Assembly (NCBI RefSeq): GCF_011065895.1
Contig: NZ_JAALCR010000046.1
Location: 1-37,279 of the forward strand
Origin: Paludisphaera rhizosphaerae
GTDB lineage: Bacteria > Planctomycetota > Planctomycetia > Isosphaerales > Isosphaeraceae
DNA length: 37,279 bases
Direction of reading: 5' to 3'
Below, one piece after another: positions 21,265-32,860 of the stretch. A model generated the notes under the pieces. That model was not told the DNA's origin and ran no database searches. It was given only the letters and a program-made list of their open reading frames with translations. How positions within the stretch are numbered: position 1 is the first letter of the stretch; each line of letters starts with the position of its first letter. Made by a program: the position numbers and the translations under genes.

Positions 21265-22791
21265 TCATTTTCCTATGCAGAACCGGGCGAAGATCCGGTC
21301 CAGGACGTCATCGGCCACGATGACGCCCGTGACTTCGCCGAGGTCATCGAGGGCGGCTCTCAGTTCGAAGGCGATCAATTCGTCGCCGCCGCCGGCGAGC
21401 ATCACGGCGGCGGCCTCGCGGATGGAGGCCGAGGCTCGCGTCAGGGCGTCTCGGCAGCGGGCGGAAGTGCCCGTCGTTGAGGACTCGCTCTCGCGACGGC
21501 GGATCGCATTGGCGATCGTGTGTTTCAGTCGTTCGAGTCCCACGCCGGTCCGTGCGCTGGTGGCAAGCCAGGGCGTTGGGTCGTCGCCTGGAGGGGGGGC
21601 GAGGTCGGACTTGGTCCAGATGGGGATGACGCGGTCGTCGTCGGGAGTCTGGGAAGTCCGGGCGTCGGACGAGGAGCAGGCGAGGATCACGTCGGCGCGG
21701 TCGGATGCAGCCGACCGGCGGTCCTGGGCTTCGGCGGCGATCGCGTCGGCGGCGGATTCCATCCCCGCAGTGTCGACCAGCTCGACGACGAGTCCGTCGC
21801 AGGGGCAGGGGGCCGACAGGGTGTCGCGGGTGGCGCCGGCGACGGGCGAGACGATCGCGTGATCGTCCCCCAACAGCCCGTTGAACAGACGGCTCTTGCC
21901 GGCGTTGGGGAGGCCGACCAGGACCACGAGCGGGGCGTCGCCGGAACGGTCGCGACGGCCCAGGCGGGCGGTCAATGCGTCGAGGGCGACCGCCTCGCGG
22001 TCCAGTTCTTCCGCCAGCGCCGCGCGGCCGATGGGATCGACGTCGGCCTCGTCGACGAAATCGAGGTCAGCCTCCAGGTGGGCGAGGAGGTCGAGCAGCC
22101 GGTCGCGCAGGGCCTCGATCGGGCCCGCCAGTCCGCCAGCGAGCTGCTCCAACGCTGCGTCGAGGCGGCGGGCGTCGCGGGCGTCGATCACGCCCAGGAC
22201 GGCCTCGGCGCGAGTCAGGTCAATTCGGCCGGAGAGGAAGGCTCGGAGGGTGAACTCGCCCGCCCGCGCTGGTCTGGCACCCTGGGACAGAACGTGCGCC
22301 AGCAGGCGGTCGAGCAGAGGAGGCGAGCCGAGCGTATGGATCTCCGCCAACTCCTGCCCGGTGTAGGTCCGAGGAGCCGGCCAGAGCGCGAGGCTCGCGG
22401 GGAGGAGCGGACGGAGGCCGGCGAGTTGGTACGAGCCGGCGATGACGGTGGGACGCCTCGGCGACGGTTCCGAGATGGCATACGCGTCCGAAACGACGGC
22501 CTTCCCCCCTGGAGGGGGAAGGTGGCCCGAAGGGCCGGATGAGGGGGACGACCGCTGTCGGACGTCTATCCCCCGACTCGTTACAAATCCCGAGGCGATC
22601 TCCCCCTCATCCGACCCCTGCGGGGTCTGCCTTCCCCCTCCAGGGGGGAAGGCGTCAGATTTGGGTTCGAAGTTCGCGAGGGCGACGCGCCACGCGCCGG
22701 GACCGGATAAACGAACGATGCCGCGAAGGCCCCCGCCGGGTGCGGAGGCCTTCGCGGCGATCAGATCCTCGGTGTCGAAGGCCGACGACAT
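21265..22791 (-). CDS. mnmE: tRNA modification GTPase MnmE with an in-frame repeat insertion
   Basis: GTPase that with MnmG installs the carboxymethylaminomethyl group on wobble uridine 34 of certain tRNAs. The 508-residue product has the N-terminal folate-binding domain (IVRLSGPGAW at 25-34; RTYTGQELAEIHTLG at 141-155), a helical domain, the G domain with P-loop GLPNAGKS (293-300), DTAGM (340-344) and TKSD (393-396), and the terminal FCIGK (504-508) with catalytic cysteine. Residues about 46-99 do not belong to the family. They are encoded by a 162-base palindromic repeat, placed in the natural loop between SGPGAWRVALANF and the next strand, in frame. The start is 13 bases after yidC, the order seen in many bacteria. 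The reading frame is intact, so a functional protein is expected. Confidence 0.93.
   Translation of the reverse strand: MSSAFDTEDLIAAKASAPGGGLRGIVRLSGPGAWRVALANFEPKSDAFPPGGGRQTPQGSDEGEIASGFVTSRGIDVRQRSSPSSGPSGHLPPPGGKAVVSDAYAISEPSPRRPTVIAGSYQLAGLRPLLPASLALWPAPRTYTGQELAEIHTLGSPPLLDRLLAHVLSQGARPARAGEFTLRAFLSGRIDLTRAEAVLGVIDARDARRLDAALEQLAGGLAGPIEALRDRLLDLLAHLEADLDFVDEADVDPIGRAALAEELDREAVALDALTARLGRRDRSGDAPLVVLVGLPNAGKSRLFNGLLGDDHAIVSPVAGATRDTLSAPCPCDGLVVELVDTAGMESAADAIAAEAQDRRSAASDRADVILACSSSDARTSQTPDDDRVIPIWTKSDLAPPPGDDPTPWLATSARTGVGLERLKHTIANAIRRRESESSTTGTSARCRDALTRASASIREAAAVMLAGGGDELIAFELRAALDDLGEVTGVIVADDVLDRIFARFCIGK
22495..22656. repeat. Nested-palindrome repeat element, copy 1 (inside mnmE)
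   Basis: 162 bases (54 codons exactly) with near-perfect terminal inverted repeats of about 27 bases. Each end is itself a palindrome of CCTTCCCCC...GGGGGAAGG type. Two internal hairpins are seen: GGCCC-GAA-GGGCC (22524-22536) and GACCCC-TGC-GGGGTC (22613-22627). The related copy lies at 32241-32403. Both mnmE-strand and opposite-strand readings are free of stops. Confidence 0.85.
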
Positions 22792-30403: not shown

Positions 30404-30552
30404 TCGCGGCTGGTCGCGGTCGGGGATTCGGCCTTCTCGCCCCCCGGCCGCGGGGATAGACTCCAGCGACCGTCCGCCCGGAGTTGCGGGGGGGGGCTCG
30501 TTCCCCGCGTCTTCGGCCGGGCCGGGATGGATCCAGCAAGGAGGGAAGGACG

Positions 30553-32151
30553 TTGGACTCGCTTTCGATCCGGTCGCTTCTCGCGGTCGCGACCGCTGCC
30601 GCGCTTCTCGCCTATGTGGGATGCAGCCGCCCCGCCCCCGAAGGCGGCGGGGATTCGTCTGTCGTCACTCCCCCTTCCGCTCCCAGTAACGCCCCCCCCG
30701 ACACGAAGGCCGCTCCAGCGCACGGCGAGGACAAGGCCGACTCCGCCGGCAAGTCCTCCAAGCTGTTCTCCCAGACGCCGGGCCTCAAGGCCGTGCTGGT
30801 GGTCTCGGGTGAGATGGACGGCTACATGGAGCCCTGCGGCTGCGCCGAGGGGCAGATGGGCGGCCTGATCCGTCGCTACGACTTCGTCGAGAAGATGAAA
30901 GCTCAGGGCGTCCCGGTCGCTCTCGTCGATCTCGGCAGCTTGATCAAGGATCCGGCCGGAGCGCGAGGGGGCTTCGAACAGGCCAAGATCAAGTTCGGGA
31001 TCGCCCTGAAGGCCCTGGGGGCGTTCAAGTACAACGCCATCGCCCTCAGCGCGGACGACCTCCGTGTTGGGGTCGGCGAGGCCTTTGCCCAGTTCCTCAA
31101 CGGGCTGGAGGGCGGGACGAAGCTGGTGGCGGCGAACGTCGTTCCAGGGGCGGGGTTCGAGACGGTCATCGTGCCGTCGGTCGTCGCCGAGGCCGGGCCG
31201 GTCAAGCTGGGGATCACCGCCGTCGTCGACCCCCAGGCGCTCGCCAAACTATCCGACCCGGACAAGGACGCCCTCATCCAGACCGTCAAGAAGCCCGACG
31301 AGGTCCTGGGCGCTGCCCTCAAGGAACTGGAGGGGAAGAGCGACTATCAGGTGCTCCTCGTCCAGGCGCCTCCCCAGGAGGCCCAACGACTGGCCGCAGC
31401 CTATCCGGGTTTCGACGTGGTCGTCGCCACGTCCGAGGCTCCCGACCCCACGGCCGACCCCGAGATGGTCAACGACGGCAAGACGATGATCGTGAACGTC
31501 GGTCGTCGCGGGAAGTACGTTGGGACGGTCGGCTTCTTCGACGGTTCCGCACCGAAGTACCATCGTCAGGCGCTGACGCCGCCGGATGGACCGGGAAACG
31601 TGGTCAAAAAGATCATCGAGGACGAGTATCGCGGGCTGCTGAAGGCCGTTGGGACCGTCGAGAACTTCCCTCGCCACGATTACGTCGGCGGCGCTCCGGG
31701 CGCGAAGTTCGTCGGGGCCGAGTCATGCAACCAGTGCCACCCGAACACGTTCCTCAAATGGTCGACGACCAAGCACGCCCAGGCGTTCACAAAGCTGGAG
31801 CACGATCCCAAGCCGAACGTGATCTTCGACGCCGAGTGCATCACCTGCCACACGACGGGCTTCGAGTACAACAGCGGCTGGAAGTCGGCGGAGGCGACGC
31901 CGAACCTCAAGGGGAACCAGTGCGAGAACTGCCACGGCCCGGCCTCGAAGCACGTCGCCGAGCCCGACAACCTGGCCTACCGCAGCGCCCTGAAACTGAC
32001 CATTGAGCAGGCCGAGCGCAATCGGGTCTGCTACCGCTGCCACGACGAGGACAACTCGCCCAAGTTCAAGTTCGAGGAGTATTGGCCCAAAGTCGAACAC
32101 AAGGGGCTCGACAAGTACACCGACCCGAAGGTCCACCAGCCGAGTCAGTGA
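30553..32151 (+). CDS. Tetrahaem cytochrome c lipoprotein with 5'-nucleotidase-like N-terminal domain
   Basis: Exported protein of 532 residues from TTG 30553, with a GGAGGGAAGG ribosome site just upstream. A signal sequence ends in AYVGC, giving a possible lipoprotein cysteine at 24. After a Pro/Ala linker, a domain of about 300 residues with GEMDGYMEPCGCAEGQMGG and IVNVGRRGKYVGTVGF resembles the 5'-nucleotidase/UshA fold but lacks clear metal ligands. The C-terminal part has four CxxCH haem-binding motifs: CNQCH, CITCH, CENCH and CYRCH, arranged as in cytochrome c554-like domains. It probably carries electrons in the periplasm, and lies 149 bases after DUF1573. The CGC motif in the N-terminal domain is conserved in relatives as far as I recall. 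Confidence 0.85.
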   Translation: MDSLSIRSLLAVATAAALLAYVGCSRPAPEGGGDSSVVTPPSAPSNAPPDTKAAPAHGEDKADSAGKSSKLFSQTPGLKAVLVVSGEMDGYMEPCGCAEGQMGGLIRRYDFVEKMKAQGVPVALVDLGSLIKDPAGARGGFEQAKIKFGIALKALGAFKYNAIALSADDLRVGVGEAFAQFLNGLEGGTKLVAANVVPGAGFETVIVPSVVAEAGPVKLGITAVVDPQALAKLSDPDKDALIQTVKKPDEVLGAALKELEGKSDYQVLLVQAPPQEAQRLAAAYPGFDVVVATSEAPDPTADPEMVNDGKTMIVNVGRRGKYVGTVGFFDGSAPKYHRQALTPPDGPGNVVKKIIEDEYRGLLKAVGTVENFPRHDYVGGAPGAKFVGAESCNQCHPNTFLKWSTTKHAQAFTKLEHDPKPNVIFDAECITCHTTGFEYNSGWKSAEATPNLKGNQCENCHGPASKHVAEPDNLAYRSALKLTIEQAERNRVCYRCHDEDNSPKFKFEEYWPKVEHKGLDKYTDPKVHQPSQ

Positions 32152-32497
32152 GTAAAGTGATCGACCAAGGTCCGGCCTGACCGAAGTCCCCTCTCCCACC
32201 GGGCTGACGACCCGACACTATCTCAGGAATAGCGACCATAACGGCCTTCCCCCCTGGAGGGGGGAAGGTGGCCCGAAGGGCCGGATGAGCGGGACGACCG
32301 CCATCGGACGTGCATCCGACGGTTCCCTCTCGATCCCACGCCAGTCGTCCCCCTCATCTGACCGCTTCGCGGTCTGTCTTCCCCCTCCAGGGGGGAAGAC
32401 GTCTTGATCGCAGCCGTTGATAAAGTGTTGGGTCGTCAGCCGTCGGGAGACGGGACGAGGGGACGACCCTCGTCGATGGTCCGAAAGGAAGAACTCC
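32152..32497. other. Intergenic region carrying repeat copy 2
   Basis: 346 bases between the cytochrome gene and the DUF962 gene. Nearly half is the repeat at 32241-32403. The remainder shows no recognisable gene. Confidence 0.7.
32241..32403. repeat. Nested-palindrome repeat element, copy 2 (intergenic)
   Basis: 163 bases related to the element in mnmE. The terminal inverted repeats again read ACGGCCTTCC...GGGGGGAAGACGTC, and the GGCCC-GAA-GGGCC hairpin is identical. The second hairpin is GACCGC-TTC-GCGGTC (32360-32374), versus GACCCC-TGC-GGGGTC in copy 1: a C-G pair has become G-C with pairing maintained. The centre between the hairpins has diverged. Confidence 0.85.
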
Positions 32498-32860
32498 ATG
32501 CCGCAGACCGCCGAGCCGACCACCAGCGCGACCACGATCCCCAAACAGACGCGTCTCGAGCGGATGAGGGCGGACTATCGCCAGGACCACCAGAATCCGA
32601 TCAACCACTTCCTGCACGTCGGCGTCGGCTGGCCGATCATGGCCCTGGCCGTGATCCTGGCCCCATTCCGGCCCTGGTGGGCCTTCGGCCTGTTCTGCCT
32701 CTCGTACGCAATCATGTGGATGGGCCACTTCGTCTTCGAGCGCAACCTCCCCACCGTCTTCACCCAGCCGACCACCCCCTTCGTCATGGCCTGGTCCGTA
32801 ACCGGCCAGATCCTCTCCGGGATCGGGCGACTGGTGACCGGGAAATCGAAGCAGGCCTGA
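32498..32860 (+). CDS. DUF962 / Mpo1-like membrane protein
   Basis: Protein of 120 residues. The start is ATG 32498 (MPQTAEPTTSATT) with AAAGGAAG upstream; a longer frame from 32417 lacks a ribosome site. It has NPINHFLHVGVGWPIMAL (conserved histidine), a first hydrophobic span, a second span FGLFCLSYAIMWMGHFVFE with the second conserved histidine, and RNLPTVF..PTTPFVMAW, the DUF962 pattern. The yeast relative Mpo1 is an iron-dependent dioxygenase that alpha-oxidises 2-hydroxy fatty acids; whether the bacterial protein does the same is unknown. It converges on recN with a 13-base gap. Confidence 0.85.
   Translation: MPQTAEPTTSATTIPKQTRLERMRADYRQDHQNPINHFLHVGVGWPIMALAVILAPFRPWWAFGLFCLSYAIMWMGHFVFERNLPTVFTQPTTPFVMAWSVTGQILSGIGRLVTGKSKQA

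Follow-up and report, generated by a model that had tools for sequence, protein, structure and literature searches.

Palindromic repeats that are read in frame within protein-coding genes are known from Rickettsia and, in the form of REPs, from several phyla (PMC10969869, PMC2229807, PMC3733652, PMC3767692, in the sections used here). According to the relevant parts of three of these sources (PMC10969869, PMC2229807 and the R. japonica genome, PMC3767692), through which Ogata 2000 and 2002 are cited here, Rickettsia palindromic elements (RPEs) are palindromes of 100-160 bp that are repeated in the genome at both intergenic and genic positions, lie in frame and without a stop in unrelated protein genes, contribute a similar peptide to these unrelated proteins at solvent-exposed sites, and have no settled mover. 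The GTAG/CGTC REPs consist of 20-40 nt hairpin units, with an unpaired GTAG or CGTC at one end, in inverted pairs, some of which are located in frame in genes, notably uvrA (Di Nocera 2013, PMC3733652); the same source, in the part drawn on, reports GTAG families for the PVC superphylum including R. baltica. A third line of work concerns the DUF559 (PF04480) domain. In excerpts of the respective papers, one DUF559 protein is assigned to the EDxHD homing endonucleases (PMC9403480), the DUF559 protein VsrA is described as Vsr-like (PMC12907096), and repeated transposase/DUF559 segments are recombination hotspots in a Legionella genome (PMC12308824).

Here we describe a 162-bp palindromic element that is read in frame in the mnmE gene of Paludisphaera rhizosphaerae. 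Measured against the RPE features above, it is a palindrome repeated in about 112 intergenic and genic units, it lies in frame without a stop in 10 genes, it gives a similar peptide to unrelated proteins at a site that in MnmE is a predicted low-pLDDT loop, and it likewise has no settled mover. It differs from RPEs in belonging to the Planctomycetota, in its G+C-rich sequence and 8-Mb genome, in having empty sites in same-genus relatives, and in the endonuclease genes that lie between the same arms. The first-pass annotation of this DNA had called the arrangement RPE-like; this stands for the palindrome and for the coexistence of in-frame genic and intergenic copies, while the class rests on behaviour and the element is not filed as an RPE. 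In its behaviour, the element matches the RPEs, in a host from a different phylum. With the GTAG/CGTC REPs, as far as the cited sections describe them, the element shares hairpin units in inverted pairs and in-frame genic copies, but it has no unpaired GTAG or CGTC, its arms are ~55 nt long with two hairpins each, and it shows no RAYT link. The DUF559 genes resemble the systems in the excerpts above in their PF04480 domain, in conserved acidic and His residues and in a mobile or repeated setting, but are bracketed here by palindromic arms that are also dispersed as a gene-free element.

The first-pass annotation also knew of no such arrangement in planctomycetes. For Isosphaeraceae this agrees with the literature seen, whereas in-frame palindromes outside Rickettsia were already known from the section of PMC3733652 cited above. 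Our literature search, conducted mostly without subscription journals and weak as evidence of absence, returned no account of such an in-frame element in Isosphaeraceae and no paper tying DUF559 to palindromic repeats. In the part used of a comparative genome paper on Isosphaeraceae, palindromes are mentioned only for CRISPR (PMC5352709).

The palindromic element in mnmE

The window, which is the whole stretch of 37,279 nucleotides that was analysed, contains the interrupted mnmE gene and a second copy of the element (Table 1). Position, length and codon count of the insert within the mnmE ORF had been given correctly by the first-pass annotation, and the two internal hairpins that it noted are present, one in each arm. 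Its description of 27-base inverted ends holds for 24 nt of perfect pairing and reaches 27 only with one base unpaired (the extra G of GACGG). The stem of the arm B hairpin is of a type that is rare in its own genome and common in relatives, with compensating bases. As a single strand, the minus strand of the element folds at -129.7 kcal/mol, compared with -79.05 +- 4.33 kcal/mol for 200 shuffles (z -11.7). The terminal palindrome pattern, allowing up to three mismatches, has three matches in the window against a mean of 0.00 in 100 shuffles, two of them in the mnmE element and one in the second copy.

Table 1 Features of the mnmE locus and genes carrying in-frame copies of the element
Feature	Position	Strand	Remarks
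mnmE	21265-22791	-	host gene; 508 aa with insert; G-domain motifs and C-terminal FCIGK intact; ORF and Pfam
Palindromic element	22495-22656	+	162 bp = 54 codons = MnmE residues 46-99; read in frame in mnmE
Arm A, outer palindrome	22499-22522	+	24 nt, perfect complement of arm B end
Arm A, second hairpin	22524-22536	+	GGCCC-GAA-GGGCC
Variable centre	22549-22600	.	divergent in seed alignment of 30 copies, arms conserved
Arm B, second hairpin	22613-22627	+	GACCCC-TGC-GGGGTC
Arm B, outer palindrome	22630-22653	+	
Second element copy in window	32241-32403	+	in no predicted gene; flanked by open frames 30460-32148 and 32408-32857
AcrB-family RND pump			host gene
Acyltransferase/FabA synthase			host gene
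Cytochrome-peroxidase/propeller protein			host gene
UvrA-like ATPase			host gene
PMT-family glycosyltransferase			host gene
Membrane protein without Pfam match			host gene
HemY-like amine oxidase			host gene
Ser/Thr kinase	L019 1501-1825		host gene; position given for its two tandem copies, head to tail, 109 codons, in frame
FHA-like protein (named by eye)	L011 241-3162		host gene; two or perhaps three in-frame inserts

Insertion site and state of MnmE

In the Pfam scan, MnmE matches MnmE_helical and MMR_HSR1, and TrmE_N over residues 132-189 only. Its score against TIGR00450 is 178.6 bits, under the cut-off of 252.6, with the match in two pieces; the same cut-off is missed by 5 of 14 control genomes. 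An MnmE match was obtained in 42 of 45 Isosphaeraceae genomes, including the genome of the window (G000), and the alignment contains 29 relatives with loci, five further rows being repeats of some among them. The insert is missing from all 29 aligned relatives, which disposes of the concern that it might be common to all planctomycete MnmE proteins, and the surrounding stretch differs by a few residues.

The AlphaFold2 model of MnmE, the sole host protein modelled, was built from a 9-row alignment and has a mean pLDDT of 67 and a pTM of only 0.37. In this model, residues 47-112 have pLDDT below 50 and no secondary structure, and the segment lies in the N-terminal domain between strand 41-43 and strand 115-121. 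The model is thus in line with the earlier claim that the N-terminal domain is interrupted at a loop, and the insert probably occupies a variable, disordered loop.

Over 440 columns, MnmE of G000 carries 17 unique substitutions, compared with 13, 6, 5 and 6 in its sisters; at positions that are invariant in four further relatives the counts are 8 versus 5, 3, 5 and 2. With these counts, the intact G-domain motifs and FCIGK terminus, and the MnmG gene found in the genome, we conclude that mnmE is not decaying; it may be under somewhat relaxed selection. A second MnmE-like frame of 368 aa is located elsewhere in the genome (G000:C30:58151-59104), in which the N-terminal and G-domain parts of TIGR00450 are matched and the C-terminal part is not.

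A repeat family with conserved arms

G000 is a draft genome of 8.05 Mb in 110 contigs. The mnmE element matches at least 40 places in it at 79-100% identity (E down to 4.9e-28), plus one at 77%, with 40 of 291 candidates scored. An inner-arm pattern gives 97 matches, compared with 0 for the reversed control, and merging element and arm-pattern matches yields 99 places. On the loci around these places, an nhmmer profile of 30 copies delineates the roughly 112 units after automatic de-duplication, a figure that includes fragments and merged neighbours; 64 units are 150-170 bp long. The seed alignment of the 30 copies shows two conserved arms of ~55 nt and a variable centre. A perfect second-hairpin stem of at least 4 bp is found in 290 of 301 arms (180 of 186 in G000 loci, 110 of 115 in loci of relatives). 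This hairpin occurs in many stem types whose pairing is kept by compensation; as the types vary and the pairing is retained, the conservation of the arms is conservation of nucleic-acid structure. An Rfam search of the element gave no gathering-score match, and the matches below that score are mostly generic long hairpins such as MIR1858.

The motif is present in all six genomes of the genus, with 5 to 199 matches (199 in G005, 50 in G004), and in none of the 39 other Isosphaeraceae; the control gives 0. The genus is taken to be Paludisphaera, as the MnmE frame of G003 equals that of Paludisphaera soli JC670 in length and score. A slightly looser pattern, applied to a draw of 392 genomes of the phylum, matches two, namely G000 (135 matches) and one genome of the class (a single match); G000 was the only member of the genus in that draw. 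By motif, the repeat family is confined to a single genus within the set of 45 Isosphaeraceae genomes searched.

The ends of 62 aligned copies read ..ACGGC on the left and ACG, ACC or GCG on the right, whereas the mnmE copy ends in GACGCC with its GCC paired. Terminal inverted repeats, many copies and the lack of a gene of its own are the marks of a MITE, and a classical MITE of a DDE insertion sequence, with the parent copy unseen, would account for the size, the long terminal inverted repeats and the many similar copies. However, the 64 full-length copies give no signal of the target-site duplication expected of a MITE, the longest word shared by the flanks being 4.42 compared with 4.38 in shuffled flanks, and visual inspection of three arm-to-arm intervals (L089, L095 and L098) showed no recognizable transposase-like ORF. 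We regard a MITE origin as unlikely, if worth keeping in mind.

The two-hairpin arms in inverted pairs also resemble REP dimers, which raises the possibility of a REP/BIME-type repeat with a RAYT (Y1) transposase as its mover, a situation known from enterobacteria and pseudomonads; G000 has one Y1_Tnp gene, whose sequence we take to resemble RAYT. Nevertheless, the 3.3-kb locus of this gene contains no arm, Y1_Tnp is missing from the element-bearing G004 while being found in 34 of the 39 motif-free genomes of the family, and the element is without a GTAG end. A RAYT as mover was rejected for want of co-occurrence with the element, and a REP/BIME-type origin appears quite improbable.

In-frame copies in nine other genes

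In a codon-usage test, eight elements lie within open frames and are flanked by coding signal at both ends. A stricter version (60 codons) returned only two same-frame cases and was replaced by an order-4 Markov test, which scores each flank separately, so that frame-breaking cases are equally detectable. Ten of the 112 units were set aside with too little flank; the other 102 comprise 8 same-frame and open cases, 1 on the same strand in a different frame, 3 divergent, 37 with signal on one side and 53 with no signal. These counts are incomplete, since the Markov test misses mnmE (scored 'one side') and L028 ('divergent'). The union of the two tests is nine genes, and ten with mnmE (Table 1), so that the element does occur elsewhere in coding sequence, contrary to one objection foreseen by the first-pass annotation. 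Host identities come from a Pfam scan of nine of the ten proteins, one of which has no match; this membrane protein presumably resembles YfhO. The inserts of the FHA-like protein, a 118-bp and a ~160-bp element, are located in a low-complexity stretch. The encoded peptides recur across hosts, for example FPPGGGRQTAxRSDEGD..SPSSGPSGHLPPPGGKAV.

Joined-flank queries against five relatives find no element-sized insert in seven of eight genes (eight of nine with mnmE). The kinase, a member of a large paralogous family, was excluded from this empty-site count, and the FHA-like protein is outside the eight genes queried. The RND, synthase, propeller, PMT, YfhO-like and HemY-like genes have empty sites in two to six loci each, and the UvrA-like gene in one; its site is plainly empty only in G005, the matches of G002-G004 being split. 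Within the matches of 59 ortholog and paralog loci no element arm is present, and a single arm pair (L183) lies outside its match. The insertion sites coincide with places where ortholog length varies: relatives have as many as some twenty additional residues in the synthase linker, and the propeller protein of G000 has ~20 extra residues beside the element that are missing from two relatives. Separately, the UvrA-like ortholog of G001 carries a natural, non-element segment of ~100 aa at the element site, and the G000 and G005 proteins are without it.

Read-length repeats can produce false joins, and the inserts might in principle be assembly artefacts at a repeat in this 110-contig draft. A false join would unite unrelated flanks, whereas in mnmE and seven other genes both flanks are parts of one gene and colinear with relatives; the chance of an artefact is accordingly very small.

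By reading, the lone different-frame case was judged to sit between two ORFs, the upstream of which extends into the element. With a one-in-three chance of the same frame, the odds are P = 1.5e-4 for 8 of 8 and 9.7e-4 for 8 of 9. The 64 full-length copies, taken by profile ends, fall into length classes 0, 1 and 2 mod 3 as 21, 24 and 19, and they are open in 152 of 384 frames. From these two figures, the share of random genic insertions expected to retain reading is about one in eight, whereas all detected genic copies do. There is no clear gene disruption among the detected copies, and disruptions may be undercounted, as a truncated gene remnant without signal would score 'one side' (37 of 102). 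Genic copies are strongly depleted overall, with 8 of 102 units compared with 236 of 400 random boundaries inside a gene, as expected if most have been purged. At L068 1801-1958, an element is located between two ORFs, and the upstream frame enters the element and ends past it, so that the element may supply the C-terminal tail of the upstream ORF.

Among 64 elements in 62 loci of the five related genomes, none is in frame; 60 of these loci are from G002, G004 and G005 and were picked as best matches to the window copy. Gene invasion is thus seen in G000 only.

The extremely strong fold of the segment could suggest that the inserts are removed at the RNA level or bypassed by ribosomes, leaving normal proteins. 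In that case frame and stops would not matter, yet all eight (or eight of nine) detected genic cases are in frame and open, although the full-length copies are spread over the three length classes and most of their frames are closed. In addition, no Rfam family reaches its gathering score, and the Pfam scan of MnmE, whose insert is 54 aa, contains no intein domain. Removal or bypass is highly improbable; since both frame and stops make a difference, translation of the segment is most likely, rather than its removal.

Retention in ten genes of both core and peripheral function could also mean that the inserted loop has acquired a function in MnmE or other proteins. Against this, the hosts are unrelated, the MnmE model predicts a disordered-looking loop, relatives are without the insert, and the peptides recur because the DNA recurs. 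An acquired function is very unlikely; the ~54 added Gly/Pro/Ser-rich residues most likely form a tolerated, disordered loop without a function of its own.

DUF559 genes between the arms

The association with DUF559 is post hoc, as a DUF559-like gene was first noticed between arms and the link was then tested. A search of the genus gives 17 rows that represent 15 genes in five of the six genomes. Nine of the genes are strong matches (best E at most 3.7e-12), three of them in G000. Eight of these nine are bracketed by arms no more than 300 bp away, which are inverted in seven cases. If each genome is assumed to have 200 arms, the chance that a gene is bracketed in this way is roughly 5e-5. The ninth (L280/L283), which lies at a contig end and is interrupted by a stop, has its nearest arm on the visible side 960 bp off. 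None of the six weak DUF559-like domains (open frames of 278-377 aa) has an arm within 1.4 kb.

The unit is laid out as arm, ~100 nt, DUF559, ~90 nt and arm, and the L276 unit starts some 15 nt past the stop of the upstream gene. In G000, the C42 gene has its two nearest arms in direct orientation and an inverted partner 570 bp away, and the other two genes have diverged arms (25-38 bits versus 54-59). G005, with its 199 motif matches, has no DUF559 match, and G004, with 50, has only a weak one; two element-bearing genomes of the genus are therefore without a strong DUF559 gene. All eight DUF559 proteins compared, those of G000 included, share the residues E30, D56, E67, D69, H73 and D80, which we take to be catalytic. 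Solved relatives are 3hrl (E 3e-13) and, weakly, the mobile-intron protein 3r3p (E 0.13). At L089 1780-3080, a different ORF is located between two inverted arms, which presumably resembles an Mrr-type restriction enzyme.

Relatives of the DUF559 genes are present in 29 plasmid records, from which 14 loci were picked by hand. Inverted repeats with a score of at least 21 flank six of them, from Sphingobium, Novosphingobium, A. lipoferum, Pseudanabaena and two Sphingomonas plasmids; two further loci are borderline (16 and 18, the highest control window being 17), and six are without inverted repeats. In the Pseudanabaena plasmid pPg_02 (L293 355-3276), DUF559 and the inverted repeats are in one frame with an Eco57I-like methylase domain, and this protein may be a natural nuclease-methylase fusion. 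It also contains a further repeat-like segment, LPPSPKEGEGG..SGRGAGGEG, later on. In a Sphingomonas plasmid (L299 1456-1848), a DUF559 gene with inverted repeats on both sides is located among annotated NAD(P) transhydrogenase genes, like a mobile unit.

Arm-like sequences in Rhizobiaceae plasmids

One arm of the element is matched in 88 plasmid records, among them 68 from Rhizobium and 15 from Shinella. These Rhizobiaceae repeats are alike in arm sequence, mostly at 80-92% identity, but belong to another phylum and cover less than 80% of the element in 87 of the 88 records. They are possibly RIME (Osteras 1995, as cited in the part of PMC2573895 used here). In the Shinella plasmid pcSHIWSC3 (L269 8-1363), an arm-like match lies inside the frame of an annotated E2 (dihydrolipoamide acetyltransferase) gene. 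Its product reads ..TPSSGPSGHLLPAGEKG.. beside ..SPSSGPSGHLPPPGGKAV.. in MnmE, and the peptide SSGPSGHL is common to both. Spread by plasmids was also considered and rejected; the only near-full plasmid copy, with 73.4% over 96% of the element, comes from SH-PL62, a member of the same genus.

Origin and meaning of the insertions

The element is inserted in frame in mnmE. This insert is probably a copy of a mobile, non-autonomous palindromic element, related to the DUF559 unit and kept in proteins where the frame is preserved. From the bracketing arms we infer movement driven by DUF559. The DUF559 unit would be the autonomous relative of the element; its Vsr/EDxHD-like nuclease would open the DNA, and the folded element would be copied or moved in trans. 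Such a homing-like mechanism would fit the missing target-site duplications. Selection would then remove most genic insertions, and around one in ten of the copies now present would survive in a gene, where the frame is preserved and a loop is the position.

A wider reading, which we put forward tentatively and with less than even confidence, is that the palindrome forms the ends of a kind of small mobile unit, undescribed in the literature searched, whose core is a DUF559 (Vsr/EDxHD-like) endonuclease and which occurs in planctomycetes as well as in alphaproteobacteria and cyanobacteria. Both the full unit and the gene-free form derived from it could settle in frame inside proteins, like a never-spliced intein that leaves new loops.

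Discussion of protein-coding palindromes has so far centred on Rickettsia, whose members are obligate parasites with genomes in decay and in which relaxed selection is a possible cause; the same phenomenon is found here in a large planctomycete genome. The event is recent, as same-genus relatives show the element-free site in eight genes, which allows the origin of new protein segments from a mobile repeat to be examined soon after insertion. Moreover, the DUF559 endonucleases are a concrete and testable candidate for the mover of such elements.
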